Source of the DNA: a virus
Virus record (IMG/VR): IMGVR_UViG_3300017759_000004
Span: 1 to 60,941 of that record
DNA length: 60,941 nt
Direction: 5' to 3' (one strand)
The notes below the pieces were generated by a model, which ran no database searches, was not told where the DNA came from, and worked only from the letters and a program-made list of their open reading frames with translations. Shown here piece by piece: positions 5,035-16,799 of the stretch (positions are counted from its first letter, which is position 1; every line of letters begins with the position of its first letter). The translations under genes were made by a program, and so were the position numbers.

Positions 5035-5040
5035 TATATA

Positions 5041-5682: not shown

Positions 5683-5879
5683 TGAACACACATAGATTAA
5701 GACTCATACCCAGAGAGGATAGTAGGGAAGCACAGGAACTATTCACTTATCACATGAAACGTGATGGGTATATGTATTGTGATGAACGATTAGATAAATG
5801 GCATGTATATAATCCCAACACAGGTATAAATTTTTGGGTTGACCCAAAGAATGACCCAATGTGGGAGGTCGTATATTAA
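5682..5879 (+). CDS. Small unknown protein
   Basis: This 65-aa protein begins MNTHRLRLIPREDSREAQEL, is rich in Trp, Tyr and charged residues, and ends WEVVY. It overlaps the previous stop and abuts the next ATG. No family is recognised. Confidence 0.6.
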   Translation: MNTHRLRLIPREDSREAQELFTYHMKRDGYMYCDERLDKWHVYNPNTGINFWVDPKNDPMWEVVY

Positions 5880-6047
5880 ATGGATTGTTATCGCATTTCG
5901 TGGTGGGATTGTAGCATACATGGTTACCATAATAAAAAAGGAGAATGTGTAACCAATAACATTTCAACAGGAGCAGAGATAATGAAAATGGTTAGTGATG
6001 AAGGGTGGAGTTGTACTGTTGAATGTTGTACTCAGGATGGTATCTAG
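5880..6047 (+). CDS. Cysteine-rich small protein (55 aa)
   Basis: The ATG follows the previous stop with no gap. The product has six Cys in 55 residues, in DCYRISWWDCSIHG, GECVTNN and CTVECCTQ. This could be a small zinc-binding or disulphide-stabilised protein, but the spacing does not match a classical zinc finger that I know. It is too short for firm assignment. The following 60-odd bases up to 6111 hold no gene. Confidence 0.55.
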   Translation: MDCYRISWWDCSIHGYHNKKGECVTNNISTGAEIMKMVSDEGWSCTVECCTQDGI

Positions 6048-6136
6048 GCATAAATTCTTGTTACTAAGTGACTGAAATGTGATGATATCAAAATAAATAG
6101 TGGTAGACTTAAGGAGAACAAGATGAACCCAAACTC

Positions 6137-6334
6137 TTGTATTATGAGTTAACTTACGAGGTAACAATGCACAACTTAATGAATCACAAACAGACACCAG
6201 AATATTACAACTTCTCTTCTGAAACACCCAACAATGATCTTTGGAACGACTATTTTGATTGTATAGTTGATTGTTCAGAACAAACCCATAATCAATCCTG
6301 TCGTAGGATTTGTCGAGATATGATTCCAGATTAG
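6137..6334 (+). CDS. Small protein with an apparently displaced start
   Basis: The open frame reads YYELTYEVTMHNLMNHKQTP and on to CRDMIPD, with five Cys in its second half (DCIVDC, SCRRIC). It has no ATG near its beginning; the first possible start is TTG 6137, and the first ATG is at 6167. A strong ribosome-binding site (AAGGAG, 6111-6116) with a well-spaced ATG at 6123 lies in a different frame and gives only MNPNSCIMS before stopping at 6152. Read one base out of phase, the same stretch gives DEPKLLYYELTYEV, which joins on smoothly. This suggests a one-base change, a frameshift, or a leader peptide. Function unknown. Confidence 0.5.
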   Translation: MYYELTYEVTMHNLMNHKQTPEYYNFSSETPNNDLWNDYFDCIVDCSEQTHNQSCRRICRDMIPD

Positions 6335-6389
6335 TCCAGTTACCAAACTGTCACAACCCCTTGCAAAAGGGGTTTTTTTATTGTATAAT
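6332..6389 (+). promoter_or_regulatory. Operator-type early promoter (copy 1), helicase operon
   Basis: Palindrome 6332-6355: half-sites TAGTCCA and TGTCACA around GTTACCAAAC. The -10 TATAAT is at 6384-6389, 28 bases downstream. The extended dyad CAGTT-N4-AACTG is perfect around the centre. The left half overlaps the stop of the upstream gene. Uniquely, a terminator sits between operator and -10. The first gene downstream starts at 6423. Confidence 0.7.
6355..6379 (+). terminator. Rho-independent terminator
   Basis: A perfect 8-bp stem AACCCCTT (6355-6362) / AAGGGGTT (6367-6374) with a GCAA tetraloop is followed by more T residues to 6379. It ends the small-gene transcript upstream and lies between the operator and the -10 box of the helicase promoter, so it does not affect transcripts from that promoter. 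Confidence 0.85.
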
Positions 6390-6422
6390 AATAATATTGA
6401 GACGAAAGTCATTTATTTTATT

Positions 6423-7676
6423 ATGCAGTTAAGACCCCATCAGCAAAGAGCATTTAACGCAATGCAAGAGACACCATATGGTCAGGTCATTATTCCTACA
6501 GGTGGTGGTAAAACTTATATTATGATCGCTGATGCTATGAAGCAATTTCAGTTACCAAGATCACAAACTATTGTAGTAGTCGCACCTCGTATATTACTAG
6601 CAAACCAGTTATGTGCAGAGTTCACAGAGTTTATCACAGAACAGAACTCAAAGTTTGGTCTTGATATTGCTCATGTTCACTCAGGAGAGACTCATCACTT
6701 CAGTACAACTAATCAGTTTGAGTTGAATGAATGGGTTAACAATAGCACAAAGAATATTATTATCTTTACAACATATCATTCACTACACAAAGTATGTAAT
6801 GCAGTTGATGTAGAAGTTGATACTATTTACTATGATGAAGCACATAATGGCACATCAAAGAATTTCTTTGAAGCGGTTGCTAGAATGTCATTTGGTGTAG
6901 CATATCGTAGGTTCGCATTTACAGCAACACCTAAGTTAGGTAGAGGTGCATCTAAAACTAGAGGTATGAACAATACTAAAGTATGGGGTAACACTCTATG
7001 TAATGTAAAAGCACAGGAACTTATTGATAGTGGTGCTATATTACCGCCTAAAGTTGTTCCTTTTACATGTAAGACAGAGAGAAACAAAGAGAATGCACAT
7101 GAGGTTGATGCACAGAACTTAATGGACATGTTAACATCATTCGGAGACAATGGACATAAAGTATTAGTTGCTAGTCCTAGCACTAGAGTTCTAAACAATA
7201 TGTTATCAAGAACATTCATACTTGATTGGTTATCTGATAATGGATATGATGTACTACATATTACATCAAAGTATGGTGCTATCATCAATGGAAAGAAGGT
7301 AGGTAGAGAAGAGTTCTTTGATACTCTTACTAAGTTTGGCAATGATAATAATCGTAAGGTTATTGTATTTCACTACAGTATATTATCTGAAGGTATCAAT
7401 GTCAATGGACTTACTCATACAATACTATTGAGAAATTTACCAACTATCGAAATGGCACAAACTATTGGTAGAGTTATCAGAGTTCACAAAGATGATAGAG
7501 ACGCTATCTCTAATGGTCAGTTGACTATTGGTAACTGGCAGTTCTATAAGAAATCAAGTGGACAGATCACAGTACCAACAGAGAACAAGTATGGAGATAA
7601 GATTGCTAGAAGACTAGAGTCTATTGTTGATTACATATTCAAGGAAGGATTACCCCCTATAGCATATGCATCATGA
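6423..7676 (+). CDS. Superfamily II DEAD/DEAH-type helicase
   Basis: This 417-aa protein carries a complete SF2 set: Walker A PTGGGKT (residues 25-31), DEAH (138-141), TATP (167-170) and motif VI QTIGRVIR (346-353). It begins MQLRPHQQRAFNAM, a Q-motif-like head seen in UvsW/RecG-like and type III restriction helicases. It probably unwinds or remodels branched DNA or RNA; T4 UvsW is the nearest well-known parallel, but this protein is shorter, so I give no symbol. I place the start at 6423 rather than an upstream TTG at 6381, because that TTG lies within the -10 region. It overlaps the nuclease gene by 4 bases (ATGA), so helicase, nuclease and methylase form one operon. Confidence 0.88.
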   Translation: MQLRPHQQRAFNAMQETPYGQVIIPTGGGKTYIMIADAMKQFQLPRSQTIVVVAPRILLANQLCAEFTEFITEQNSKFGLDIAHVHSGETHHFSTTNQFELNEWVNNSTKNIIIFTTYHSLHKVCNAVDVEVDTIYYDEAHNGTSKNFFEAVARMSFGVAYRRFAFTATPKLGRGASKTRGMNNTKVWGNTLCNVKAQELIDSGAILPPKVVPFTCKTERNKENAHEVDAQNLMDMLTSFGDNGHKVLVASPSTRVLNNMLSRTFILDWLSDNGYDVLHITSKYGAIINGKKVGREEFFDTLTKFGNDNNRKVIVFHYSILSEGINVNGLTHTILLRNLPTIEMAQTIGRVIRVHKDDRDAISNGQLTIGNWQFYKKSSGQITVPTENKYGDKIARRLESIVDYIFKEGLPPIAYAS

Positions 7677-8191
7677 CAGCAAAAAAAGGAACACATAGTT
7701 TTTCAAGTGGAAAACAAACTAAACATGAGAACAAACATATATCCCTAGTCCAAGAGATATATGATGAGTTTAAATGTCATGATGATAAGTGGGATAAAAG
7801 AAAAATGGTAACAGTTGCAGAGTTAATAGGAGAAGAAAATGTTAACTACGCTAGACACATGACAGGTAACTCTAATGAAATTTATAGTGATGGTGGAGTT
7901 ATATTTTATGATGGGAAAATCGTAGGATTATGTGAAGACAAATATCAACAAGATCATAGGAATGCATGTGAGAGAGCATGTAAGTATCAAGTGTATATGG
8001 ATTTAAAACCAAACCAGATATTTTTATCATGTGGTGGTGTGGGATTTGAGTTTGATACAAATAGACATGGTGGTGGTGCAACAGGCACATTATATGATAT
8101 AATGAAGTATCGAGGATATTCCATTGCTATGAATGAGACAGAACAAGAGTTCAAAACAAGATTAAGAAACTGGTTTAAAGGATTATTATGA
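7673..8191 (+). CDS. EcoRI-family restriction endonuclease, compact form
   Basis: This 172-aa protein has the EcoRI core in order: IYSDGGVIFY (residues 70-79; EcoRI IKPDGGIVEV), GLCEDKYQQD (85-94; EcoRI LVAEAKHQGK), RNACERACKY (96-105; EcoRI GNAIERSHKN) and PNQIFLSCGGVGF (113-125; EcoRI FPYVLFLEGSNF). This predicts a PD-(D/E)xK site of D73, E88 and K90, matching EcoRI D91, E111 and K113, with E100/R101 matching the E144/R145 recognition pair. It should cut double-stranded DNA at a short palindrome not knowable from here. It is far shorter than EcoRI (277 aa), with spacing between motifs trimmed. It overlaps the helicase and the methylase by 4 bases on each side. The alignment is by eye from memory of EcoRI. 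Confidence 0.7.
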   Translation: MTAKKGTHSFSSGKQTKHENKHISLVQEIYDEFKCHDDKWDKRKMVTVAELIGEENVNYARHMTGNSNEIYSDGGVIFYDGKIVGLCEDKYQQDHRNACERACKYQVYMDLKPNQIFLSCGGVGFEFDTNRHGGGATGTLYDIMKYRGYSIAMNETEQEFKTRLRNWFKGLL

Positions 8192-9051
8192 AACCCCTTT
8201 TCATGTGGGCAGGTGGTAAGAATAAGATGATGAAGCATTATCAACCTTACTTGCCTAGTTACGTCACTCACTATCATGAACCATTTTTCGGTGGTGGTGC
8301 TATGTTCATATATGTAATGAAAAGGTACAAACCGAAGTATGTATTGATTAATGATATTAACCCAGACATCATGAGAATATACAGAATGATAAGAGATAAT
8401 CATTCTCAGTTTATCAAACACATGGACGAATATCAAGAGAAGTATATACCACTCAGCAAGGAAGATAGAAAGAAATATTATTTCGAGGTCAGACATGGAC
8501 ACGCATTTGATTATAAAGGATGGAGTGAAGTTAAGGAAGCATCAACACTATACTTCTTAATGAAAACAGGTTTCAATGGCATATATCAGATCAATAAGAA
8601 TACTAATGGACGCTATGGTACACCTAGTGGACTTCTTAATCAAAAGGATACTGTTTACGATAAAGAGATTGTTAAGTGGTGGAGTGAAGCATTGCAAGGT
8701 GCAGAGATAACAAGTAAAGACTGGAAAGAAGTTAAAGCACCCCCATCTAAGGTGTATGCATTCCATTTTTTCGACCCCCCTTATAGGACATCTTATGCTG
8801 ATTATGGCAATGCTTTTAATGATAATGATTTAATAGAGTTGATAAAGTATGCTGATACATGTTCACAGGTATTTCTTGCTAACAGAGCAGACGATGATTT
8901 CTTTGAAAAGCAAAACCATAAACTAAACGTAGCACATTTTGACATAACATACACAGCAGGGAGAAGAAAACAAATAGATGATAAGTTTGAAGCAAAGAAG
9001 GCAAGAGAGATTCTACTATACAATGTCAAGGAAGGTGTGACAGTTGTATAA
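8188..9051 (+). CDS. Dam-like (D12-class) DNA N6-adenine methyltransferase
   Basis: This 287-aa protein has the D12-class order: a motif X-like head FMWAGGKNKMM (residues 5-15), motif I HEPFFGGGAMF (30-40) for S-adenosylmethionine binding, and motif IV DPPY (196-199) for catalysis, plus LKTGFNG-like and GRYGTP segments typical of Dam proteins. It methylates adenine N6 in a short DNA site; GATC is the usual target of T4-type Dam, but the site here is not shown. Its start overlaps the EcoRI-like nuclease by 4 bases, so it may protect against that enzyme. Its stop codon lies inside the next operator. Confidence 0.88.
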   Translation: MKPLFMWAGGKNKMMKHYQPYLPSYVTHYHEPFFGGGAMFIYVMKRYKPKYVLINDINPDIMRIYRMIRDNHSQFIKHMDEYQEKYIPLSKEDRKKYYFEVRHGHAFDYKGWSEVKEASTLYFLMKTGFNGIYQINKNTNGRYGTPSGLLNQKDTVYDKEIVKWWSEALQGAEITSKDWKEVKAPPSKVYAFHFFDPPYRTSYADYGNAFNDNDLIELIKYADTCSQVFLANRADDDFFEKQNHKLNVAHFDITYTAGRRKQIDDKFEAKKAREILLYNVKEGVTVV

Positions 9052-9095
9052 GTGGCACAAGAGTGGTTGCATTGGGTTGCAATATGGTTTATATT
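9036..9095 (+). promoter_or_regulatory. Operator-type promoter (copy 2), drives RNA candidate
   Basis: Palindrome 9036-9059: half-sites TGTGACA and TGGCACA around GTTGTATAAG. The -10-like TATATT is at 9090-9095, 30 bases downstream. The left half encodes the last residues of the methyltransferase and the stop lies in the spacer. Initiation is predicted at about 9101-9103, exactly where the 11-bp closing stem of the RNA candidate begins. Confidence 0.6.
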
Positions 9096-9100
9096 AATAA

Positions 9101-9194
9101 TGTCGAAACAAACCAACGTAAAACTTTCAAGGTAACGGATACCCAGAGGAATACGTTTTTAAATCGAACTTAAGTAGTTGAGTTTTGTTTCGAC
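9101..9194 (+). ncRNA. Candidate structured RNA (three-way junction)
   Basis: A perfect 11-bp stem, GTCGAAACAAA (9102-9112) with TTTGTTTCGAC (9184-9194), encloses 71 bases that fold by eye into two arms. Arm 1: 9120-9128 pairs with 9148-9151 and 9155-9159 (one G-U pair, a 3-base bulge), capped by GGTA/TACC (9131-9134 / 9140-9143). Arm 2: AACT/AGTT (9167-9170 / 9176-9179) extended by TC/GA. No protein frame fits. The predicted start of transcription coincides with the 5' end of the stem. It may be a free RNA or the structured leader of the gene at 9369, since no T-run terminator follows. It does not look like a tRNA. Confidence 0.45.
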
Positions 9195-9282
9195 CCATCA
9201 CTGGGCATTGCCACACTCTACCGAACATTGCGTTGGAGCATCTAGTTCAACCGAGAACATGTAAGACCCATCCCTAGGCATT
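9192..9282 (+). repeat. Direct repeat in gene-free stretch 9195-9368
   Basis: The 17-base string GACCCATCMCTRGGCAT, followed by T, occurs at 9192 and again at 9265 with two differences, 73 bases apart. The first copy can form a CCCA/TGGG hairpin. A 7-bp inverted pair TGCCACA (9209-9215) / TGTGGCA (9319-9325) spans the second copy. The rest of 9195-9368 shows no convincing gene; it may be leader RNA of the gene at 9369. Confidence 0.45.
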
Positions 9283-9368
9283 AAGCATACGAACTTTAAA
9301 ACACCAACTTTAATTAGATGTGGCAGTTGCAATCTTATGTAAGTCCTAATCCTTTTATTATTTGAAAC

Positions 9369-9554
9369 ATGGTAAACTACAAACAACTTATTGAACTTGA
9401 TGGATACATCAATATCTGGGAAGTAATACCAGAGGATGAGCATTCACATATTTCTAACAAGATATGGGAAGCACTTGATCGGGCGGGTATAACCTTATCA
9501 CAGGATGCAGAGTTATCAGTCAGAGTATATGACAGTATAGAAAGTGGCACATAG
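9369..9554 (+). CDS. Small acidic protein (61 aa)
   Basis: Begins MVNYKQLIELDGYINIWEVI and ends YDSIESGT; acidic and probably helical. It is the first gene after the 317-base gene-free stretch that holds the RNA candidate, so its translation could be governed by that leader. No ribosome-binding site is obvious. The stop lies directly after the next operator. No family is recognised. Confidence 0.6.
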   Translation: MVNYKQLIELDGYINIWEVIPEDEHSHISNKIWEALDRAGITLSQDAELSVRVYDSIESGT

Positions 9555-9586
9555 TTGCCCCATCTACCTATCATATTCATTATAAT
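9528..9586 (+). promoter_or_regulatory. Operator-type early promoter (copy 3)
   Basis: Palindrome 9528-9551: TATGACA and TGGCACA around GTATAGAAAG. The -10 TATAAT is at 9581-9586, 29 bases downstream. CCCCAT occupies the -35 position in place of a TTGACA box. It overlaps the end of the 61-aa gene and precedes the gene at 9609. Confidence 0.7.
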
Positions 9587-9608
9587 AAGAATACAGCAAA
9601 ACATTATT

Positions 9609-9923
9609 ATGTACGACACATCAAAACGTATCGATGCTACTCTACTTGAAGGTTCACATGACATCAAGTTATCTCGCAGAGAGTTAGGTATCCTACTCAG
9701 ACATATGTCTATCATGTTCGCAAGTATAGACGAACCAAACAGAAACACATGGTACGAAGACGATTTTGGTAAGGATGCAATAGTATCTTTATATCGCAAA
9801 GCACTTGCTACTTATGAAGCAAACTATGATGATAAATCTGATCTAGAGAGAAAAGATTATGCCACTCAACCATTCTACTGGAATCATCAAAAACATCACA
9901 AAACAGCATTTCCTTTATTCTAA
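9609..9923 (+). CDS. Small unknown protein (104 aa)
   Basis: The likely start is ATG 9609, in the ACATTATTATG leader shared by many of these units; a longer frame reading back to 9555 runs through the promoter and is not credible. The product begins MYDTSKRIDATLLEGSHDIK and is mixed charged, ending with an aromatic/His-rich tail (FYWNHQKHHKTAFPLF). It overlaps the next ATG by one base. No family is recognised. Confidence 0.65.
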   Translation: MYDTSKRIDATLLEGSHDIKLSRRELGILLRHMSIMFASIDEPNRNTWYEDDFGKDAIVSLYRKALATYEANYDDKSDLERKDYATQPFYWNHQKHHKTAFPLF

Positions 9924-10105
9924 TGAAACATAACATAGGTTTAACATACGAACAACTATCTGACATCATTTACTATCTTGATTGGAAGTTAATGGAGATC
10001 AGGGAAGCAGGATGTGATTTAGAATATCCTGATGTAGTCGATACTCTTAAACAACTAGAGGACTACAAACATCAACTAGCAGTATCTCATCAACTATACA
10101 GATAA
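9923..10105 (+). CDS. Small helical protein (60 aa)
   Basis: Begins MKHNIGLTYEQLSDIIYYLD and looks like two or three amphipathic helices. It shares one base with the preceding stop (TAATG) and is directly followed by the next ATG, so it sits in a three- to four-gene unit from the promoter at 9528. No family is recognised. Confidence 0.65.
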   Translation: MKHNIGLTYEQLSDIIYYLDWKLMEIREAGCDLEYPDVVDTLKQLEDYKHQLAVSHQLYR

Positions 10106-10315
10106 ATGAACTATCAAGTAACAGAGATTGAACTCTACTTATGTGAAGTTGGAGACGGAGACCCCGATTTACAGTTTACACCCGAAGAGGAGTATGTCAT
10201 GCACCAAAGGTGTCTAGGTAGATGGACAGCATATAATGAAGATGACCTAAGAAATCGAATATTTGATTTTATCGGTTATCATGCTGAACATTTAAAATAC
10301 GAGGTAAGACCATAA
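10106..10315 (+). CDS. Small acidic protein (69 aa)
   Basis: Begins MNYQVTEIELYLCEVGDGDP, with an acidic first half and a helical second half. It abuts the previous stop and overlaps the next ATG by one base. No family is recognised. Confidence 0.65.
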   Translation: MNYQVTEIELYLCEVGDGDPDLQFTPEEEYVMHQRCLGRWTAYNEDDLRNRIFDFIGYHAEHLKYEVRP

Positions 10316-10431
10316 TGGAAGATGAATACTTTGACCCTGATCTAGGTTTAACATACACAGACAACTTTGATGAGTATGATGTGCCAGTTGAAGAAGTGTC
10401 ACATGACCAGTTGCAAGATCAGGAATCATAA
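10315..10431 (+). CDS. Very acidic small protein (38 aa) containing an operator
   Basis: The ATG overlaps the previous stop (TAATG). The product begins MEDEYFDPDLGLTYTDNFDE and is strongly acidic. Its codons for VPVEEVSH are the operator palindrome of the next promoter (10380-10403), so this gene's 3' half doubles as regulatory DNA. No family is recognised. Confidence 0.6.
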   Translation: MEDEYFDPDLGLTYTDNFDEYDVPVEEVSHDQLQDQES

Positions 10432-10440
10432 TACTATAAT
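10380..10440 (+). promoter_or_regulatory. Operator-type early promoter (copy 4)
   Basis: Palindrome 10380-10403: TGTGCCA and TGTCACA around GTTGAAGAAG, wholly inside a coding sequence. The -10 TATAAT is at 10435-10440, 31 bases downstream. The following leader ACAAACATCATTATG begins the gene at 10464. The left half and spacer are identical to those of the copy at 16405. Confidence 0.75.
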
Positions 10441-10463
10441 AAGAACATACAACAAACATCATT

Positions 10464-10670
10464 ATGGATTTACAACTCGAAAGAGAATATGCAATCGACA
10501 ATATGGGCGATAGCATAGGTCAAGCAATCGAAAAAGCAACAGACCAAAAAAGATTAGATGATGCAATGTCATTATATCAAGAGTGGTGTGTTTTAGATAA
10601 CATTGCTGAACAAGATGACTACCAGTTCATGTTCATGAGAAACTTTACTTTACCAGAGGGGTTAAACTAA
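10464..10670 (+). CDS. Small acidic protein (68 aa)
   Basis: Begins MDLQLEREYAIDNMGDSIGQ, predicted mostly helical and acidic, ending FTLPEGLN. It is the first gene after promoter copy 4, with an A-rich leader and no classical ribosome-binding site. It overlaps the next ATG by one base. No family is recognised. Confidence 0.65.
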   Translation: MDLQLEREYAIDNMGDSIGQAIEKATDQKRLDDAMSLYQEWCVLDNIAEQDDYQFMFMRNFTLPEGLN

Positions 10671-10906
10671 TGGATGTAGCATTCGCAGACTGGTTAACAC
10701 ATTGCCCAGACAAACTAAAATTTGCTCTAGAGTATGTTGATCTCAGGGCAGATATTGCTAACGTGATCGAAACTTATGAATATGAGTTCGCTTCAATCGA
10801 AGTAGAAAAGGAAGTAACTGAAGCAGTACTCAACAAACTAATCAATCAAGATTGGTCAGAACAGAATGAATACATATCAGATCTAATCGATCAGGAGATA
10901 GCATAA
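10670..10906 (+). CDS. Small acidic helical protein (78 aa)
   Basis: Begins MDVAFADWLTHCPDKLKFAL and continues as acidic helices to SDLIDQEIA. It shares one base with both neighbours (TAATG). The opening DWLTHCP resembles EWLNTCP in the gene at 12606, which hints at related small proteins. No function is known. Confidence 0.65.
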   Translation: MDVAFADWLTHCPDKLKFALEYVDLRADIANVIETYEYEFASIEVEKEVTEAVLNKLINQDWSEQNEYISDLIDQEIA

Positions 10907-11052
10907 TGTTAGAACTAACACCCGAACAACTTAGATACATGTTAAAATGTTTAGACTTTCATTATAGTGAGAACTATGATAGAAAAGAGGAGTTGATAAT
11001 GATTAACTCTAGCATTGCTAAACTTATCCAACATGAACTAAGTGACAGTTAA
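10906..11052 (+). CDS. Small helical protein (48 aa)
   Basis: Begins MLELTPEQLRYMLKCLDFHY and ends QHELSDS. It is last in the unit from promoter copy 4. The final codons and the stop lie in the next operator (GTGACAGTTAA), a pattern repeated at 12055. No family is recognised. Confidence 0.6.
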   Translation: MLELTPEQLRYMLKCLDFHYSENYDRKEELIMINSSIAKLIQHELSDS

Positions 11053-11102
11053 CAAACTGGCACATTGTTCCCCCATTCCACTCTATTATGATCTATTATA
11101 AT
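11041..11102 (+). promoter_or_regulatory. Operator-type early promoter (copy 5)
   Basis: Palindrome 11041-11064: AGTGACA and TGGCACA around GTTAACAAAC. The extended dyad ACAGTT-N4-AACTG is clear. The -10 TATAAT is at 11097-11102, 32 bases downstream, the longest spacing seen. The leader AAACAAACATCATTATG precedes the gene at 11126. Confidence 0.75.
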
Positions 11103-11125
11103 AGTATAAACAAACAAACATCATT

Positions 11126-11308
11126 ATGACCAGAGAAGAGTACGACCTAATCTATTCAGCATTCAGATCATATAGAGTCTATATGACAGATGCAGACGAA
11201 GTATTATCTGAGAAAATCTTAGATGATCTATTTTATCCAGAGTTCGATAAACTAACACCTGTTGAGTTAGTTCCATCAATCTCAGTAAAACTACCAGAGG
11301 TAAACTAA
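11126..11308 (+). CDS. Small acidic protein (60 aa)
   Basis: Begins MTREEYDLIYSAFRSYRVYM and is acidic with a proline-containing tail (SVKLPEVN). It is the first gene after promoter copy 5. The next ATG is one base after its stop. No family is recognised. Confidence 0.65.
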   Translation: MTREEYDLIYSAFRSYRVYMTDADEVLSEKILDDLFYPEFDKLTPVELVPSISVKLPEVN

Positions 11309-11309
11309 A

Positions 11310-11525
11310 ATGTGTAACAACGATCTTAAACAATGGAAAGTAGGAACAGAGGGAGAGACATGGGATTATGGTTACGTCCAGAATCCTAAACAGTTTATTG
11401 AAGAGGTTTTTGAAATCGCTTTCGGGGATGATGCCATCAATCGTAACTATTCTATGGGCGAAGTTTTAGATAGACTTATGGAATTTAGTGACGATGCACT
11501 ACGTTACAATGGAGAGTTAGATTAA
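11310..11525 (+). CDS. Small acidic protein (71 aa)
   Basis: Begins MCNNDLKQWKVGTEGETWDY, with an acidic helical C-terminal half. It overlaps the next ATG by one base (TAATG). No family is recognised. Confidence 0.65.
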   Translation: MCNNDLKQWKVGTEGETWDYGYVQNPKQFIEEVFEIAFGDDAINRNYSMGEVLDRLMEFSDDALRYNGELD

Positions 11526-11701
11526 TGATAAATGTACAGATTACATTCGATGAAGCATATCAGTTTATTAAACTGTATGACATACTCAGGGATATGGATA
11601 TGCCTTTAACACCAAAACAAATGAGTGTATTTGAAAAGATACAAACAGGAGACTACCTAGTCAAAACTCATCCTAGTTCACAACATTATCAAGGAGCGTA
11701 A
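11525..11701 (+). CDS. Small unknown protein (58 aa)
   Basis: The ATG overlaps the previous stop. The product begins MINVQITFDEAYQFIKLYDI and is probably mostly helical, with a possible helix pair separated by PLTP. It ends SSQHYQGA, and its last codons supply the ribosome-binding site (AAGGAG, 11690-11695) of the next gene. No family is recognised. Confidence 0.65.
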   Translation: MINVQITFDEAYQFIKLYDILRDMDMPLTPKQMSVFEKIQTGDYLVKTHPSSQHYQGA

Positions 11702-11702
11702 A

Positions 11703-11894
11703 ATGCAAGTAGTTATTACACCAAAAAACTTATTCTCACTTGAAACTTGTGTGGACTGTAGTAAAAACTGTAGTATCGGGTCAGGTCGATTTGTGAATAG
11801 GTATGCATATTATGGAGACGAAGTAGAGGGATGGCGGTGTGGTCATTGTGCTGAAGAACTTGATGCATTTATAGAGGAGAACATACAATGTTAA
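11703..11894 (+). CDS. Small zinc-ribbon-like protein (63 aa)
   Basis: Two cysteine pairs, CVDC (residues 16-19) with a further C23, and CGHC (46-49), sit in a 63-aa protein beginning MQVVITPKNLFSLE. Two CxxC knuckles about 26 residues apart would suit a single zinc ribbon, which could bind nucleic acid or a host protein such as RNA polymerase. It overlaps the next gene by 7 bases. A good ribosome-binding site (AAGGAG) lies 7 bases before the ATG, unlike the first genes of these units. Confidence 0.65.
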   Translation: MQVVITPKNLFSLETCVDCSKNCSIGSGRFVNRYAYYGDEVEGWRCGHCAEELDAFIEENIQC

Positions 11895-12055
11895 CTGATA
11901 ATGAACTTATCTCAATAGTTCGCACTCTAGACAAATATTGTGAGCAACCAAATATTGCTGACGATATTGAAGAAGAGTTGATGAGAATATCTTTTAAGAT
12001 AGAGGATATCTTAATCAATCGAGGTGTGGAAGTCAATAGCATATGTGACAGTTAA
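11888..12055 (+). CDS. Small acidic helical protein (55 aa)
   Basis: The ATG overlaps the end of the zinc-ribbon gene. The product begins MLTDNELISIVRTLDKYCEQ and is helical and acidic, ending NSICDS. The final three codons and the stop are in operator copy 6. No family is recognised. Confidence 0.6.
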   Translation: MLTDNELISIVRTLDKYCEQPNIADDIEEELMRISFKIEDILINRGVEVNSICDS

Positions 12056-12102
12056 TTATGTGTCACACACTTCCACGCATCGGGTATAAAATCCCTTATA
12101 AT
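12044..12102 (+). promoter_or_regulatory. Operator-type early promoter (copy 6)
   Basis: Palindrome 12044-12067: TGTGACA and TGTCACA around GTTAATTATG, with perfectly complementary half-sites. The -10 TATAAT is at 12097-12102, 29 bases downstream. The leader ACAACAAACATTATTATG precedes the gene at 12128. Confidence 0.8.
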
Positions 12103-12127
12103 AAGGATAACGACAACAAACATTATT

Positions 12128-12412
12128 ATGAGACCAACAGACCTAGTAACAGCAAAAAGACAAATCGATGATTTCGTTGATTATGTTGATTCATTCTATG
12201 GTCAGAATGACCCTTTATACCCTTTAGTTTATCAAGGTCAACCATTAACAAAGACTGATATTCTAACAGCAACAGTTATCTACCTCGACCAGTGCAACAA
12301 CGATGATTTCGAGTTTTGTACATGGGGTGATGGTGATTCACTTGACAGAGAGAGAGTAAGAGACATTCTACTAGACAAACTAAACTATGATCACAAAGAC
12401 GGTACATGGTAA
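12128..12412 (+). CDS. Small acidic protein (94 aa)
   Basis: Begins MRPTDLVTAKRQIDDFVDYV and continues as an acidic helical protein with FCTWGDGDSLDRERVRDILL near the end. It is the first gene after promoter copy 6. Its stop overlaps the next ATG (TAATG at 12410-12414). No family is recognised. Confidence 0.65.
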   Translation: MRPTDLVTAKRQIDDFVDYVDSFYGQNDPLYPLVYQGQPLTKTDILTATVIYLDQCNNDDFEFCTWGDGDSLDRERVRDILLDKLNYDHKDGTW

Positions 12413-12609
12413 TGCTATTAGTTACTCACATAGACGTTTATGAAAAACTGGATGACGATATCCAGTTTAAGATAGACAATGGTCTCGGATGTTGGACATC
12501 AAAAGATCATGAACTATGGGATGATGTACAAAACTACATTCAACCCTATACTCTCAAAAATGTAGAGTATGAAAAAAACAGACCACACGCTCTAACGTCA
12601 TTCCTATGA
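12412..12609 (+). CDS. Small unknown protein (65 aa)
   Basis: I start at ATG 12412, which overlaps the previous stop as elsewhere, rather than the in-frame ATG 12406. The product begins MLLVTHIDVYEKLDDDIQFK and is acidic then basic, ending HALTSFL. It overlaps the next gene by 4 bases (ATGA). No family is recognised. Confidence 0.6.
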   Translation: MLLVTHIDVYEKLDDDIQFKIDNGLGCWTSKDHELWDDVQNYIQPYTLKNVEYEKNRPHALTSFL

Positions 12610-12788
12610 AAAGATCAACTTTTACAATATTCAATGAGTGGTTAAACACTTGCCCCTATGGGGATTATACAACTGGCGGTATGGACTACAACCCAAAAAC
12701 TAAAATGTGGGAAGTATCGTTTAAAGTACCGAATGTTTCAAAAGCACTCAAAGATTCTTATACACCATTTGAATATCAAAATCAATAG
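12606..12788 (+). CDS. Small unknown protein (60 aa)
   Basis: Begins MKRSTFTIFNEWLNTCPYGD and looks like a small alpha/beta protein. The EWLNTCP head echoes DWLTHCP in the gene at 10670. It ends 4 bases before operator copy 7. No function is known. Confidence 0.65.
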   Translation: MKRSTFTIFNEWLNTCPYGDYTTGGMDYNPKTKMWEVSFKVPNVSKALKDSYTPFEYQNQ

Positions 12789-12792
12789 GCAT

Positions 12793-12851
12793 TGTGCCAG
12801 TTATTAAAGTGTCACATAGTTACCCCATCTGGGGATACAACCCACTATAAT
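12793..12851 (+). promoter_or_regulatory. Operator-type early promoter (copy 7)
   Basis: Palindrome 12793-12816: TGTGCCA and TGTCACA around GTTATTAAAG. The -10 TATAAT is at 12846-12851, 29 bases downstream. The -35 zone is filled by a second small palindrome, CCCCATCTGGGG. The leader AAGCAACAAACATTATTATG precedes the gene at 12877. Confidence 0.8.
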
Positions 12852-12876
12852 AATAGTATAAGCAACAAACATTATT

Positions 12877-13119
12877 ATGAACTCAACAGCAACTTACACA
12901 GAACCAACAAACAGAATCAAACAGAGAATCCTATTTGATGACAACTTACAGAATATGGCATGTTGTTGTGCTGACTGGGCAGAGTATGTTATCGAGATCG
13001 AAGAGTGGGGAATCTACAAGTTAGGCGGAGTTGATTTTGATGATTTAACTTCTGACGATATTGTTAAACTTGATGAGTTTATCAAGTCAGAAAACGGTTA
13101 CATCAGAGAGGAGGTTTAA
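12877..13119 (+). CDS. Small acidic protein (80 aa)
   Basis: Begins MNSTATYTEPTNRIKQRILF and is acidic, with three Cys in CCCADW. It is the first gene after promoter copy 7. The second gene of the unit starts 3 bases after its stop. No family is recognised. Confidence 0.65.
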   Translation: MNSTATYTEPTNRIKQRILFDDNLQNMACCCADWAEYVIEIEEWGIYKLGGVDFDDLTSDDIVKLDEFIKSENGYIREEV

Positions 13120-13122
13120 GCA

Positions 13123-13302
13123 ATGTCAACTAAACCATTTAACTGGACTATTCCATCATTTAACGATACAGAGCAAAAATGGCGAGAGTATCACGAGGAA
13201 TACGAAGAGAAATTTACGACTGACATATATCAGGCACATATTGCAATCGCACAAAAATTTCCATTCATTTATAATGAGTATGGACTACCGAGGGAGGACT
13301 AG
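13123..13302 (+). CDS. Small unknown protein (59 aa)
   Basis: The ATG at 13123 is preceded by GAGGAGG within the end of the previous gene, a strong ribosome-binding site. The product begins MSTKPFNWTIPSFNDTEQKW, has a charged WREYHEEYEEKF helix and ends GLPRED. A longer frame over the same bases in another phase is only a shadow. No family is recognised. Confidence 0.65.
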   Translation: MSTKPFNWTIPSFNDTEQKWREYHEEYEEKFTTDIYQAHIAIAQKFPFIYNEYGLPRED

Positions 13303-13313
13303 TCAATGAAAAA

Positions 13314-13371
13314 TGTGCCACTTTATAAAGTGTCCACTTATGCCACACTTGTGGTCATAATCCTTTATAAT
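13314..13371 (+). promoter_or_regulatory. Operator-type early promoter (copy 8, degenerate right half)
   Basis: Palindrome 13314-13337: TGTGCCA and TGTCCAC around CTTTATAAAG; the right half departs from consensus. The -10 TATAAT is at 13366-13371, 28 bases downstream. A CCACA-CT-TGTGG palindrome lies in the -35 zone. The gene at 13404 follows. Confidence 0.65.
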
Positions 13372-13403
13372 ATTAGTATAAACACAGTTCAAACAACTTT
13401 ATT

Positions 13404-13568
13404 ATGAGTCATTCAGCAAACACAGAAATCCTAGAAAACTTATACGAGGAGATTCTAGACGATCTTACAGCAAAAAACATCCAACTAGGTATTATGTTAC
13501 CTATGGAACACCTCGAAGCAATAGCATCAAAGCATGCTAACCAAAAATTTGAGATGATGTGCCAATAA
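13404..13568 (+). CDS. Small acidic protein (54 aa)
   Basis: Begins MSHSANTEILENLYEEILDD and looks fully helical, ending HANQKFEMMCQ. It is the only gene in the unit from promoter copy 8. Its last codons and stop form the left half of operator copy 9. No function is known. Confidence 0.65.
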   Translation: MSHSANTEILENLYEEILDDLTAKNIQLGIMLPMEHLEAIASKHANQKFEMMCQ

Positions 13569-13616
13569 ACAAAGTGGCACACAGTATCCCCATCTGGGGA
13601 TACAATCCACTATAAT
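13558..13616 (+). promoter_or_regulatory. Operator-type early promoter (copy 9)
   Basis: Palindrome 13558-13581: TGTGCCA and TGGCACA around ATAAACAAAG, with perfectly complementary half-sites. The -10 TATAAT is at 13611-13616, 29 bases downstream. ATCCCCATCTGGGGAT fills the -35 zone, nearly identical to copy 7. The gene at 13653 follows. Confidence 0.8.
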
Positions 13617-13652
13617 AATAGTATAACAAACATTCAACAACTTTTATTCATT

Positions 13653-13862
13653 ATGTCAGGTATTTACGGAAGCAACAAAAAAGGTCTAAACATTCAAGTA
13701 ACTGATTCTCAGTACGATTTTCTTTATGACCTAGTTATGTCAGCATACGATTTGGATATTCCAGATCAAAAAGGTTGGGATACTCAAACCTTTGATAATC
13801 TAGTTGATAATGTTTGCAACGCAAAGCAAACTTATTTAACTAATGACGTAAAGGGAGTTTAA
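13653..13862 (+). CDS. Small acidic protein (69 aa)
   Basis: Begins MSGIYGSNKKGLNIQVTDSQ and continues as an acidic helical protein. It is the first gene after promoter copy 9; the next ATG lies 4 bases after its stop. A ribosome-binding-like GGGAG for the next gene is in its last codons. No family is recognised. Confidence 0.65.
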   Translation: MSGIYGSNKKGLNIQVTDSQYDFLYDLVMSAYDLDIPDQKGWDTQTFDNLVDNVCNAKQTYLTNDVKGV

Positions 13863-13866
13863 TCAA

Positions 13867-14202
13867 ATGAGAACTTGGATTTTTGGAAACTATGTAAACG
13901 ACCCGCATGGGAAGTTTATGCCATTACAGACTATTGAGTCAGAATTCTATGGAAGACATTTTTTCATAGATCTCGCATTTGAGTTTATATCAGCACCTAG
14001 TCTCAAGTCAGGTGGATATGATGAGAGTCAACTGGATTATGTTGCTAACTGGACAGACATGGAAGGTCTCAACATAGGGGAACTAATGAACATATACAGA
14101 GATCTTACATGGAAGGAAAATAATAAAAATCAAGAGAAGGCACATTCTGATATGTGCGAATATATGGAAGCAGTTGAAAATGGCGAGGTCACATATCTAT
14201 GA
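13867..14202 (+). CDS. Unknown protein (111 aa)
   Basis: Begins MRTWIFGNYVNDPHGKFMPL, is aromatic and acidic, and ends with a helix (KAHSDMCEYMEAVENGEVTYL). It overlaps the next gene by 4 bases (ATGA). No family is recognised. Confidence 0.65.
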   Translation: MRTWIFGNYVNDPHGKFMPLQTIESEFYGRHFFIDLAFEFISAPSLKSGGYDESQLDYVANWTDMEGLNIGELMNIYRDLTWKENNKNQEKAHSDMCEYMEAVENGEVTYL

Positions 14203-14414
14203 AGACTATACAACGATACAAGAAACCTGACTCTATTGGAGTCGGGGATAATGTACTCTTTAAAAATAAAGAGTATCAAGTCTTGATAAACTACATTAAA
14301 GGAGATCAGGATAGGAAGGGATTTATACCAACTGAAAACTTTACTATCCTTATTAATGATAGAGGTAAAAGAGTTTATTGTCATAACTTTAAAGAGTTGG
14401 AGATTCTAACATAA
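14199..14414 (+). CDS. Small basic protein (71 aa), beta-rich
   Basis: Begins MKTIQRYKKPDSIGVGDNVL and alternates strands with basic turns (FKNKEYQVL, ENFTILINDRGKRV). This could be a small SH3-like or KOW-like barrel, but the resemblance is general. It overlaps its neighbours by 4 and 1 bases. No family is claimed. Confidence 0.6.
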   Translation: MKTIQRYKKPDSIGVGDNVLFKNKEYQVLINYIKGDQDRKGFIPTENFTILINDRGKRVYCHNFKELEILT

Positions 14415-14566
14415 TGGAATATAATCAAAAGTTATGGAAGTCTAAAAGATGGGGAGATTATAAAAAATATCAAGATACTTCTTACATCTATTTTTCCCAA
14501 ATCGAGCAGGGTTATTTAATCAGGCAAAAGACTAAACAACTTAAACAACACTATGAAAACTTTTAA
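14414..14566 (+). CDS. Small basic protein (50 aa)
   Basis: The ATG overlaps the previous stop. The product begins MEYNQKLWKSKRWGDYKKYQ, is rich in Lys, Tyr and Trp, and ends KQLKQHYENF. It overlaps the next gene by 14 bases. No family is recognised. Confidence 0.6.
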   Translation: MEYNQKLWKSKRWGDYKKYQDTSYIYFSQIEQGYLIRQKTKQLKQHYENF

Positions 14567-14735
14567 AGAGATCTCTTACTTGAGAAAAGAAACAAGTTTC
14601 AAAGATCATGGGTATATGTTCTTCTCTAATATAGAACAGAAACCTATGATAATGTCAACCGATATTGTGCCACTTGTTAAACTGTCACACTCGTCCCCCA
14701 TTTGTGGGTCGGACGCCACTATAATAGAGGTATAA
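14553..14735 (+). CDS. Small protein running through the next promoter (60 aa), tentative
   Basis: Begins MKTFKEISYLRKETSFKDHG. The first 35-40 codons look natural. The last 20 or so (IVPLVKLSHSSP and on to the stop) are read from operator copy 10 and its -10 box. The DNA there is held by another function, so the tail may be under weak protein-level selection, as with the VPVEEV tails of the genes at 10315 and 16244. No family is recognised. Confidence 0.45.
   Translation: MKTFKEISYLRKETSFKDHGYMFFSNIEQKPMIMSTDIVPLVKLSHSSPICGSDATIIEV
14666..14725 (+). promoter_or_regulatory. Operator-type early promoter (copy 10)
   Basis: Palindrome 14666-14689: TGTGCCA and TGTCACA around CTTGTTAAAC. The -10 TATAAT is at 14720-14725, 30 bases downstream. 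CCCCAT lies in the -35 zone. The leader AAGCAACAAAGATTATTATG precedes the gene at 14751. Confidence 0.75.
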
Positions 14736-14750
14736 GCAACAAAGATTATT

Positions 14751-15197
14751 ATGACACACACAATGGTAAAAACAGACATCTACGGTTATGTAAGTCAACT
14801 ATGTGATTCTCTCGAAAGGAACTATAAAGAGTATCGTATCAGAATGCATGAAACAAACTTCACAAGTTTTAAGTCTCAAAACAGAACAGACTTATCAGAC
14901 TATGCACAGGAGCAACTTCGCAATATTGAGAATGGAACTGAAAAGTTAATGAAATTTGCATGCTACGAGGGTCGCAAGTATTTCAAGGTCGTTCAACAGG
15001 ATTTCAGAAATGGCGAGTATAGAGACGCTAGTGTGCATGCTTTCATTAATAAGGAGACAGGCGAGGTTTTCAAACCTGCAGGTTATAACAAACCAGCAAA
15101 AGGAGTTCGCTTCAATCTTGCAGACGTTACACACAGAAATTTCTTATTCCAGTCAAAAAATGTAGATTGGGCAGGTGGTTATCTATACAGGAGATAA
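14751..15197 (+). CDS. Conserved phage protein (148 aa)
   Basis: Begins MTHTMVKTDIYGYVSQLCDS. The C-terminal half reads ASVHAFINKETGEVFKPAGY, then KGVRFNLADV and ends DWAGGYLYRR. I recall proteins with the V-AFI-K-TG-V-KPA ... KGVR-NL ... DWAGGYLY pattern from marine T4-like phages and some megaplasmids, always without known function. The N-terminal half is helical and basic. It is the first gene after promoter copy 10. Conservation suggests an early host-takeover role, but that is inference. Confidence 0.75.
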   Translation: MTHTMVKTDIYGYVSQLCDSLERNYKEYRIRMHETNFTSFKSQNRTDLSDYAQEQLRNIENGTEKLMKFACYEGRKYFKVVQQDFRNGEYRDASVHAFINKETGEVFKPAGYNKPAKGVRFNLADVTHRNFLFQSKNVDWAGGYLYRR

Positions 15198-15233
15198 CCC
15201 CATTATTCTAACACTTATCCGCACTACACGCAA

Positions 15234-15455
15234 ATGAACCTAAATCAATCCGCACCTATACCGCATTTAAGTTTTAACAACTATGATGAGTTAACAGAAC
15301 TGTATCAAGCAGTCGAGTATATTCCAGAGGATCTAGAAGCAGAAATGGAACAATATGGAGCAATGACAGACGAGCAAAAAGCACTTATTGACATTATACA
15401 CAGATTAAAGACTATACATGATAACTATATAAACCAGTTACTTCACTTGCAATGA
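15234..15455 (+). CDS. Small acidic helical protein (73 aa)
   Basis: Begins MNLNQSAPIPHLSFNNYDEL and is a likely helical hairpin (residues 19-70). It overlaps the next gene by 4 bases (ATGA). The 36 bases before it show no operator, so it is probably read from promoter copy 10. No family is recognised. Confidence 0.6.
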   Translation: MNLNQSAPIPHLSFNNYDELTELYQAVEYIPEDLEAEMEQYGAMTDEQKALIDIIHRLKTIHDNYINQLLHLQ

Positions 15456-15664
15456 GTTGGAACTTAATACAATGGTCAGAACAAACATCTAACATTATGG
15501 CAACAATGACCTATCAAGATTTACTGGAAGAGTTACAACAATTAAACCCTAATCAGTTAAAGAAAAATGTTGCTATCTATGATGAACATTTAGATGCTAA
15601 GTGTTTAGCACATAACAAACTTATTTTCTTTGATAACAACGAGTTTCCCTATATTAAGATATGA
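15452..15664 (+). CDS. Small protein with a TYQDLLEEL...DV-like pattern (70 aa)
   Basis: The core from residue 16 reads MATMTYQDLLEELQQLNPNQ, then KKNVAIYDEHLDAKC, and ends NEFPYIKI. Short proteins of this layout (a helix ending L-P-Q-L, then a strand with an acidic turn, then HPYL/FPYI) are scattered in phages and plasmids with no known function. Translation may start at 15497 instead. It overlaps both neighbours by 4 bases. Confidence 0.6.
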   Translation: MSWNLIQWSEQTSNIMATMTYQDLLEELQQLNPNQLKKNVAIYDEHLDAKCLAHNKLIFFDNNEFPYIKI

Positions 15665-15927
15665 AAGTAACATTTAATAGGGGAGACTATTATCAATCAA
15701 AAAATGATATAGGTTACATAGATTTCATATGTAATGATTATATTACTCTATGTGTTAGAGAGATACAAAGAGATAACGAACAGGCAAAAGGAAGCAGACT
15801 AAATTATATTCAAGTTAAGGTATTAGTATACAAAAATGAGTATGAAGCAATGACTAAATTAGAACAACCAAACAGATTTGCAAATAAGAGTAATAAGAAC
15901 TCTTTAACTTTGGATGATTGGAGTTAA
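15661..15927 (+). CDS. Small unknown protein (88 aa)
   Basis: Begins MKVTFNRGDYYQSKNDIGYI, with strand-like segments in its first half and a basic, Asn-rich second half ending TLDDWS. It overlaps the previous gene by 4 bases. No family is recognised. Confidence 0.65.
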   Translation: MKVTFNRGDYYQSKNDIGYIDFICNDYITLCVREIQRDNEQAKGSRLNYIQVKVLVYKNEYEAMTKLEQPNRFANKSNKNSLTLDDWS

Positions 15928-15933
15928 TTTAGC

Positions 15934-16074
15934 ATGCGGAAGTTCGATCACTATGTAATAAATAAGGACTTCACTATGGTATGGATAGTTGTTAAAGAAC
16001 TAACCTATTTTACTTGGGATTATGTTAGAAAAGATGGAAAATGGCATCTAGCGGATAATAACGAAAATATGTAA
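15934..16074 (+). CDS. Small unknown protein (46 aa)
   Basis: The ATG lies 6 bases after the previous stop. The product begins MRKFDHYVINKDFTMVWIVV and is aromatic and probably beta-rich, ending DNNENM. It is the last gene of this unit; bases 16075-16243 hold no gene but do hold a sigma70-type promoter. No family is recognised. Confidence 0.55.
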   Translation: MRKFDHYVINKDFTMVWIVVKELTYFTWDYVRKDGKWHLADNNENM

Positions 16075-16178
16075 ATAAATCTTATTAAGTGTTATATAGA
16101 TGGATTAATCTCTCAGGTTAATGTACTCTTAGCACGCAACTTACCGAGTGTCAAGTATATCAGAATATCGGAACATTC

Positions 16179-16208
16179 TTGACAATGTATAAAGAATTAT
16201 GGTACAAT
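16179..16208 (+). promoter_or_regulatory. Sigma70-type promoter (TTGACA-N18-TACAAT)
   Basis: A -35 TTGACA (16179-16184) and a -10 TACAAT (16203-16208) are separated by 18 bases, within a 169-base gene-free stretch. It should drive the gene at 16244. This is the only unit in the early block that has a normal -35 box and no operator palindrome. Confidence 0.65.
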
Positions 16209-16243
16209 ATGACTGTAAGGAATGAAAAGGTTAACTGTAACTT

Positions 16244-16462
16244 ATGACCCCTAAGTATAAAGAACTGTATGACAAGTATCCCCACTTAAGTAATAAACAG
16301 CAAATAGACTTATGCCAGTATTTGTTAGACACAGAGCAACACTTCTTCAGTACTGAAATAATGCAGAGGTGTATTTACTTCTTAGAGGAGGGATTATGCT
16401 ACTATGTGCCAGTTGAAGAAGTGGCACACACAGTGACCACAGAGGGGAAAGAAGTACTATAA
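16244..16462 (+). CDS. Small protein whose 3' end contains an operator (72 aa)
   Basis: Begins MTPKYKELYDKYPHLSNKQQ, helical, with a Cys-containing middle, and ends YYVPVEEVAHTVTTEGKEVL. The codons for VPVEEVAH form operator copy 11. The gene at 10315 encodes the near-identical VPVEEVSH from copy 4, although the two proteins are otherwise different. No family is recognised. Confidence 0.6.
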   Translation: MTPKYKELYDKYPHLSNKQQIDLCQYLLDTEQHFFSTEIMQRCIYFLEEGLCYYVPVEEVAHTVTTEGKEVL

Positions 16463-16463
16463 T
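16405..16463 (+). promoter_or_regulatory. Operator-type early promoter (copy 11)
   Basis: Palindrome 16405-16428: TGTGCCA and TGGCACA around GTTGAAGAAG, with perfectly complementary half-sites. The -10 TATAAT is at 16458-16463, 29 bases downstream. Unlike the others its leader carries AAAGGA upstream of the ATG at 16495. Confidence 0.8.
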
Positions 16464-16787: not shown

Positions 16788-16799
16788 ATGGTCTAATCT

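Follow-up and report, generated by a model that had tools for sequence, protein, structure and literature searches.

An operator-like 24-bp dyad upstream of putative early promoters in T4-like cyanophages

Introduction

How does a T4-like cyanophage begin to read its genes? Among the viruses of ocean phytoplankton, T4-like cyanophages are abundant, and the start of their transcription is a standing question because the cyanomyoviruses lack alt, modA/B, motA, and asi. We analyzed this question in a 60.9-kb stretch of viral DNA, the IMG/VR virus record IMGVR_UViG_3300017759_000004 (positions 1 to 60,941; hereafter the window), in which a first-pass annotation had listed 11 copies of a 24-bp inverted repeat, TGTGNCA-N10-TGNCACA. 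The final 18 kb of the window match Synechococcus phage metaG-MbCM1 (MbCM1) at 82.8% and Cyanophage P-RSM1 at 80.6%; it is thus part of the genome of an uncultured T4-like cyanomyovirus. We propose that the repeats are operators of a promoter class that T4-like cyanophages would use chiefly in their small early gene block.

Passages of one earlier study report that cyanomyoviruses have no alt, modA, modB, motA, or asi, that a sigma-70-like motif lies upstream of the S-PM2 and Syn9 homologues of early T4 genes but was not detected in S-RSM4, and that the way in which transcription starts was unclear in 2010 (PMC2984593). The lack of motA and/or asiA is restated in part of another paper, which cites Doron (PMC5780444), and a passage of a third describes how promoters of the sigma-70, T4 late, Pho, and NtcA types were sought in cyanophage genomes (PMC3037559). 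The 24-bp motif was not found in print in those passages of the cyanophage literature that were searched.

A family of twelve dyads in the window

The 24-bp family in the window is real. Allowing up to 2 mismatches, the pattern matched the window 12 times, compared with 4.3 ± 2.1 matches in 100 shuffles, none of which reached 12; two of these matches, at 7436 and 58584, lie outside the promoters described below. A composite matrix of site, spacing, and −10 box was then derived from 331 training sites in IMG/VR loci, after removal of 24-mers shared with the window. It yielded 12 non-redundant matches. The weakest of them scored 20.8 and the strongest 51.3, whereas the top score among 4 Markov resamples was 16.4. 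The 12 matches all fall at 4983–16405, each scoring best on the + strand (8 of the 12 dyads also exceeded 20 when read backwards, each time with a lower score), and none lies past 17,000. The reported absence of the element from the virion genes is thus borne out by the matrix, which matches nothing in the window beyond 17 kb and revealed no equally good sites scattered at random in late genes. The sites and their promoters are as follows, with mismatches counted against the pattern, ORF standing for open reading frame, and ORF starts given relative to the predicted +1:

4983..5006, + strand: operator, 1 mismatch; TATAAT at 5037-5042, 30 bp on; predicted +1 at about 5049; aligns with copies in P-RSM1 and MbCM1
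6332..6355, + strand: weak operator, 3 mismatches, in the distal half; −10 at 6384; predicted +1 at about 6396; upstream of the helicase ORF
6356..6383, + strand: 28-bp spacer of the 6332 promoter, terminator-like (CCCCTTGCAAAAGGGG followed by T7)
9036..9059, + strand: operator, exact; −10 TATATT at 9090; predicted +1 at about 9102; followed by a structured RNA
9528..9551, + strand: operator, 1 mismatch; −10 at 9581; ORF start at +16
10380..10403, + strand: operator, exact; −10 at 10435, spacing 31; ORF start at +17
11041..11064, + strand: operator, 1 mismatch; −10 either TATTAT at 11094 (spacing 29) or TATAAT at 11097 (spacing 32); ORF start at about +20
12044..12067, + strand: operator, exact; −10 at 12097; ORF start at +19; matching copies in MbCM1 at 45313 and in P-RSM1 at 13423 (minus strand)
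12793..12816, + strand: operator, exact; −10 at 12846; ORF start at +19
13314..13337, + strand: weak operator, 3 mismatches, in the proximal half; −10 at 13366; ORF start at +26
13558..13581, + strand: operator, exact; −10 at 13611; ORF start at +30
14666..14689, + strand: operator, exact; −10 at 14720; ORF start at +19 (DUF7717 protein)
16405..16428, + strand: operator, exact, with the top score in the window (51.3); −10 at 16458; ORF start at +25

The original count of 11 needs some revision. Seven of those copies are exact and two carry 1 mismatch, but the sites at 6332 and 13314 have 3 mismatches each and are not recovered by the pattern at up to 2 mismatches, and the copy at 4983 had been overlooked. 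The description of their surroundings agrees with a hand count: TATAAT or TATATT lies 28–32 bp downstream in all 11 listed sites (exactly 29 bp in five), and the inner spacer of the dyad ends in AAG or AAC in 10 of 11 and starts with GTT in 7 of 11. The centers of the half-sites, said to be about two helical turns apart, are separated by 17 bp, which is closer to 1.6 turns. A start codon that opens at least 35 codons is found 16–30 nt past the predicted +1 in 11 of the 12 promoters. The exception is the 9036 promoter, where no ORF of at least 35 codons begins within 120 nt.

Architecture of the promoters

The distance between the dyad and the −10 box is nearly fixed. Among 75 sites from the window and 11 phage genomes, collected in both orientations at up to 1 mismatch and with no selection for a −10 box, TATAAT or TATATT begins at offset 29 in 27 sites, 30 in 9, 28 in 5, and 32 in 5, and any other offset from 0 to 79 holds at most 2 such boxes. 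At least 120 IMG/VR loci gave 139, 51, and 15 exact TATAAT boxes at offsets 29, 30, and 28, respectively; since these loci had been preselected for one TATAAT at 26–34, it is the sharpness inside that range that is informative. We placed +1 twelve bases after the first T of the −10 box, where a purine-T is conserved: in promoters with a spacing of 29, 94% have a purine at this position and 75% a T at +2. Given that +1, the dyad is centered at −53.5, and of 548 promoters binned, 335 have their first ATG 15–24 nt past +1.

The two half-sites are not equivalent. The promoter-proximal half is the better conserved, with 37 single mismatches compared with 78 in the distal half (p = 0.0002). At positions 8 and 17, which face each other across the dyad, Watson-Crick pairs are depleted (0.246 observed vs 0.401 expected, 293 distinct sites). 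In 256 exact sites these positions read GG in 106 and CC in 51, vs GC in 34, CG in 26, and other combinations in 39, an odds ratio of 6.1, which rises to 11.5 when each locus contributes a single site (n = 116). As a result of this preference for G...G or C...C, CAG stands in one half and CAC in the other, in 157 of the exact sites vs 60 that are self-pairing. The 12 sites of the window itself have GG in 6, CC in 1, GC in 2, CG in 1, and others in 2. Positions 5 and 20 show a slight excess of pairing (0.584 vs 0.544, p 0.047), a small result that opposes the reading of the dyad as a protein site. Unlike half-sites and the avoidance of stem pairing argue for a protein operator over an RNA stem, and the sequence pattern of the dyad is operator-like rather than hairpin-like.

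RNA structure does appear between the operator and the −10 box of some promoters. A terminator-like hairpin with a T-run occupies the spacer in 37 of 600 promoters, including that at 6332, against 1.3 (maximum 4) in 20 shuffles. In addition, 495 of the 600 have an upstream open frame, 40 codons or longer, whose end falls between −45 and +60 of the site, and in 185 of these it falls within the first 18 bp of the site, a count made without a control. Such a cassette could terminate the preceding transcript and begin the next within about 80 bp.

Distribution among phages

The first-pass annotation had hinted that the element is peculiar to this genome, which proved not to be the case, as it is present in most T4-like cyanophages examined. 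The palindrome, with up to 1 mismatch allowed, was sought in 16 whole phage records. Matches were counted on one strand, and those of a reversed-pattern control are given here in brackets; not every match has a −10 box. Matches were found in MbCM1 11 (1), Syn9 5 (0), P-TIM40 9 (1), S-PM2 7 (0), P-SSM2 11 (0), P-SSM4 3 (0), P-RSM1 8 (0), P-HM2 7 (2), S-CRM01 11 (0), S-RSM4 3 (0), and P-SSP7 1 (0). At the same threshold there were none in T4, HTVC008M, Ma-LMM01, P-TIM68, or S-SM2, the last of which had 1 control match. The absence of the element from T4 is therefore supported for the whole T4 record at up to 1 mismatch.

The composite matrix was also applied to 11 whole genomes besides the window, sites from which were still part of the training set. 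Non-redundant matches scoring at least 20 numbered 19 in S-CRM01, 16 in P-SSM2, 13 in MbCM1, 11 in P-RSM1, 10 in P-HM2, 9 in P-TIM40, 4 each in Syn9 and S-RSM4, 3 in P-TIM68 (scores 20.5–21.7), and none in S-SM2 or HTVC008M. Eight of the 11 genomes (Syn9, P-TIM40, MbCM1, P-RSM1, S-RSM4, S-CRM01, P-HM2, and P-SSM2) thus have at least 4 matches, and the predicted promoter class is common to most T4-like cyanophages examined. The phages that bear it infect Prochlorococcus and Synechococcus in marine and fresh water (S-CRM01 is a freshwater phage). HTVC008M, a phage of Pelagibacter that is filed under Kyanoviridae, lacks the element, which ties it to cyanophages rather than to the whole family. 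A scan of IMG/VR for the palindrome followed by TATAAT at 26–34 bp returned at least 120 stretches, and among the matches listed, every one of the 120 codes for one or more proteins that resemble those of the phage set (E ≤1e-5).

Within the eight bearing genomes the sites are clustered, for in every one the 25 kb richest in composite matches contains half of them or more: 8 of 9 in P-TIM40 (all eight inside a single 6-kb stretch), 14 of 16 in P-SSM2, 9 of 13 in MbCM1, 11 of 19 in S-CRM01, 6 of 11 in P-RSM1, 6 of 10 in P-HM2, 3 of 4 in S-RSM4, and 2 of 4 in Syn9. P-TIM40 has sites at 48884-55024. In Syn9, the sites at 48558 and 52996 are located in a block of small ORFs adjoining the helicase gene and those at 127492 and 148742 elsewhere; the densest 25 kb of this genome is not the small-ORF block, which has the other two sites.

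Judged by these searches, the element appears absent or vestigial in P-TIM68 and S-SM2. The small-gene block of P-TIM68 (KM359505, 48275-56043) contains a ten-copy element of its own, CTAAATGTTAGT(T/A)ACCT(C/T)TAAATTGA, typified by CTAAATGTTAGTTACCTCTAAATTGA and close variants, as if another early element had replaced the dyad in this lineage. A relaxed pattern of this ten-copy element had no matches among viral contigs.

A candidate mechanism and its alternatives

The arrangement of these promoters suggests how they might work. A dimeric DNA-binding protein would occupy the 24-bp dyad, centered near −53.5, and contact the host sigma-70 RNA polymerase, thereby compensating for a weak or missing −35 box where the −10 box is good. 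The host or the virion would be the most likely source of this activator, because the first phage genes must be read before any phage protein exists. We infer early transcription, activation rather than repression, dimeric binding, polymerase contact, and the supplier of the protein; taken as a whole, a dimeric activator of host or virion origin that lets host RNA polymerase fire early promoters poor in −35 boxes is the best explanation, and we consider it probable. The first-pass annotation had left the choice between activator and repressor open. A protein that reads the dyad and a single operator family at the early block are both supported by our results, and activation would be favored given a center near −53.5, upstream of a −35-poor promoter.

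A repressor that binds the dyad to shut the early promoters later in infection seems improbable by comparison. If phage-made, such a protein would need no pre-existing factor, and a dyad beside every early promoter might serve as a common off-switch. However, the site ends about 29 bp upstream of the −10 box, outside the usual position of a repressor over the −35 and −10 boxes, the spacing is kept to one helix face, and the window promoters, having no good −35 box, look in need of help. Much less probable still is that no protein binds and that the palindrome belongs to the upstream gene, as a stem-loop in its RNA or as its terminator, akin to the promoter early stem-loop (PeSL). The overlap of sites with upstream open-frame ends (495 of 600, again uncontrolled) and the 37 terminator-like hairpins could be taken in its favor, although those hairpins are located in the spacer. 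In the dyad itself it is the sequence that is conserved rather than the pairing, which is avoided at positions 8/17 and barely above expectation at 5/20; the logo shows no T-run after it, and compensatory changes that would preserve pairing as the sequence drifts were not seen. A target for recombination or for a homing endonuclease was set aside because of the fixed spacing to the −10 box.

The remaining alternative concerns the origin of the activator: the phages may copy the operators of a cyanobacterial regulon and hijack its host activator. In its favor, early genes require a factor that is present at entry, and the bearing phages range across Prochlorococcus and Synechococcus and across marine and fresh water. 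We regard this host promoter class as a serious possibility that falls short of an even chance. Two observations weigh against it. None of the 4 strict matches in a genome collection described below is labeled cyanobacterial, and P-HM2, whose host is MED4, has the element, whereas P-TIM68, whose host is MIT9515, has three weak copies and its ten-copy element instead.

Several results weigh against the proposed activator mechanism. Among 600 promoters, 59 have a match of 5–6 out of 6 to TTGACA at 16–18 bp, where shuffled spacers give about 9. With −35-like hexamers enriched in this way, the operator is no universal substitute for a −35 box, and both can coexist. The claim that the promoters have no TTGACA box holds in the window, where the best −35 match is 4 of 6 at spacers of 15–19; in other phages, TTGACA-like boxes are present in a minority of the promoters of this class. 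Some sites lie outside the early block, before a peptidase gene, cobS, and ribonucleotide reductase in MbCM1, as do 2 of the 4 in Syn9. The matrix also has false positives, one S-SM2 resample having scored 23.6, and a cutoff of 20 does not exclude chance matches. The other adverse points concern the binding protein: a strict host pattern (below) recovers only 52 of the 600 phage promoters, and none in Syn9, S-RSM4, S-CRM01, or P-HM2; no phage transcription-factor candidate tracks the element in a blastp comparison of gene content across 12 genomes; 82 of the 86 Syn9 families present in at least 7 of the 8 bearing genomes also occur in both P-TIM68 and S-SM2; and no transcription-factor family was found among 20 early-block proteins scanned against PHROGs, 10 of them also against Pfam.

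If correct, the model of a 24-bp operator with unlike half-sites, centered near −53.5 and set 29 bp from the −10 box, turns the question of how transcription starts into a binding experiment. It also allows likely early genes to be marked in contigs of uncultured cyanophages.

Search for the binding protein

To look for a host regulon, a strict pattern (the palindrome with TT/AA, 28–30 bp, and TATAAT) was run against a GTDB-based genome collection. This collection contains many picocyanobacteria. Only 4 matches were obtained, none labeled cyanobacterial. One is in NZ_RMVE01000006.1 (188235 bp), part of a Nonlabens assembly, which has the site found at 55024 in P-TIM40 (188632 bp) together with the same downstream flank, and is probably a cyanophage contaminant. 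The second lies on a contig of a Flavobacteriales bin that is phage-like as judged by eye, and those in a Clostridia bin and in Aequorivita were taken as chance. Given the low recall of the strict pattern, a small or divergent host regulon could have escaped.

On the phage side, 592 ORFs of MbCM1 and the ORFs of Syn9 were compared with the ORFs of the 12 genomes (blastp, E ≤1e-3). Two short MbCM1 ORFs nearly track the element: that at 136520-136807, which partly overlaps an annotated ORF, is found in 6 of 7 bearing genomes and in 0 of 4 genomes then called poor, and that at 104995-105174 (minus strand) in 6 of 7 bearing genomes and in the element-bearing S-RSM4. Of the 86 Syn9 families, the two missing from both P-TIM68 and S-SM2 are 2OG-Fe(II) oxygenases, which were rejected as candidates, being enzymes and present in HTVC008M. 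A Pfam scan of 10 other Syn9 proteins gave no convincing regulator, and a CobS-like protein had a sub-threshold match to a helix-turn-helix family.

The contrast between P-HM2 and P-TIM68 makes us lean toward a phage-specific factor, and the genomic evidence as a whole leans slightly the same way. We consider it about as likely that the activator is borne by the phage or virion as that it comes from the host. A fuller scenario can be sketched, which we put forward tentatively and regard as rather doubtful in its entirety: a phage-specific activator enters with the virion and directs host polymerase to a −35-poor early regulon, unlike Alt or MotA of T4; P-TIM68-like lineages have swapped the element; and the regulon includes a structured RNA that has no match in Rfam.

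Comparison with known systems

A novel regulatory element reportedly controls the early genes of Syn9, and similarly those of P-TIM40, and is said to be conserved among T4-like cyanophages (the abstract of Doron et al. 2016, ISME J 10:1437). The early promoters of these two phages have reportedly been studied by experiment. Both phages carry the 24-bp element (4 and 9 composite matches, respectively), and conservation among T4-like cyanophages is also what we observe, in 8 of 11 genomes. The two are very likely the same element, an identity drawn from these parallels. The 29-bp spacing, the unlike half-sites, the nested terminators, and the scan of host genomes are results of the present analysis.

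The strong early promoters of T4, which are read by sigma-70 polymerase with help from Alt, likewise combine a good −10 box with host polymerase and early genes. The window promoters have the TATAAT-like −10 box of this type; they differ in lacking a TTGACA-like −35 box at 16–18 bp (best match 4 of 6 at spacers of 15–19) and in having the upstream dyad, which at up to 1 mismatch is absent from T4. In T4 middle promoters, the site of the MotA activator replaces the −35 box, with the MotA box near −30. The parallel is that an activator site would stand in for the −35 box, but the MotA box, used with AsiA, is not a 24-bp dyad near −53. The consensus of CRP is TGTGA-N6-TCACA. That of NtcA is given as GTA-N8-TAC in a passage of an earlier study (PMC3037559). 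Operators of this type differ from ours in the spacing of the half-sites, as our consensus has 16 bp between TGTG and CACA. PeSL cassettes, composite promoter-terminators described for T4-type phages in part of another study (PMC4503421), similarly combine a terminator with a promoter. Here this is the case in 37 of 600 promoters only, with the terminator between the operator and the −10 box, and the pairing of the dyad stem is not conserved.

A structured RNA at the 9036 promoter

The promoter without a nearby ORF is followed by a conserved RNA:

9102..9194, + strand: structured RNA at the predicted +1 of the 9036 promoter; core UAARACUUUCAAGGU - hairpin - UUUAARUCGAACUUAAGYA

From its position, this RNA would be made by the 9036 promoter. 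The segment 9087-9197 of the window is 98.2% identical in P-RSM4 and S-TIM4, with no feature annotated under the match. A pattern for the core matched 61 viral stretches, and adding other loci gave 44 distinct sequences, 21 of which have an operator and a −10 box upstream (at most 4 mismatches in total; uncontrolled by shuffles). In 17 of those 21 copies, the −10 box begins 33–39 nt before the core.

The window copy was aligned with 28 of 31 non-redundant sequences (three were omitted), giving 29 in all, and a three-helix model was drawn from this same alignment. The model pairs in 94.3% of cells, compared with 78.0% after shuffling; its covariation score is 0.423 vs 0.139, and 64 vs 18.8 cells are changed on both sides (0 of 500 shuffles reach the observed value in each case). 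The outer and hairpin helices together have eight pairs, each with compensatory changes. Two other measures were unexceptional, with 9 vs 7.3 double-change pairs (reached in 59 of 500 shuffles) and 19 vs 17.9 further pair types (193 of 500). Pairing is seen in 78.4% of cells for the outer helix and in every cell for the other two. Part of the core was prescribed by the pattern used to gather the sequences, so the invariance of the core is no evidence, but none of the prescribed letters falls in the outer or hairpin helix.

Rfam had no match for the window at the gathering threshold, nor for 9080-9400 at E ≤5. A model of the RNA finds copies in 4 of 17 records, namely the window, MbCM1, P-SSM4, and P-HM2, three of which (the window, MbCM1, and P-HM2) had contributed their copies to its training; with the stricter filters used, it had no match in Syn9, P-TIM40, or P-RSM1. 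A second conserved noncoding module, ACATTGCGTTGGAGCATCTAGTTCAACCGAGAAC, lies at about 9214–9255 and was found in 16 viral stretches, where it occurs alone, before, or after the first RNA module.

Genomic setting

The 20 early-block proteins scanned against PHROGs mostly belong to families of unknown function or have no match. Three have named functions: a helicase, a DNA methyltransferase, and a 2OG-Fe(II) oxygenase. The late-promoter sequence TATAAATA has a single copy on the + strand of the window, at 2171. A textbook sigma-70 promoter (TTGACA-17-TATAAT) lies at 16732-16790 with a terminator-like hairpin and T-run directly after it, and its RNA would be very short. The virion region contains a single ORF of 6587 amino acids at 23213-42976, a similar ORF in Syn9 being 6076 amino acids long.

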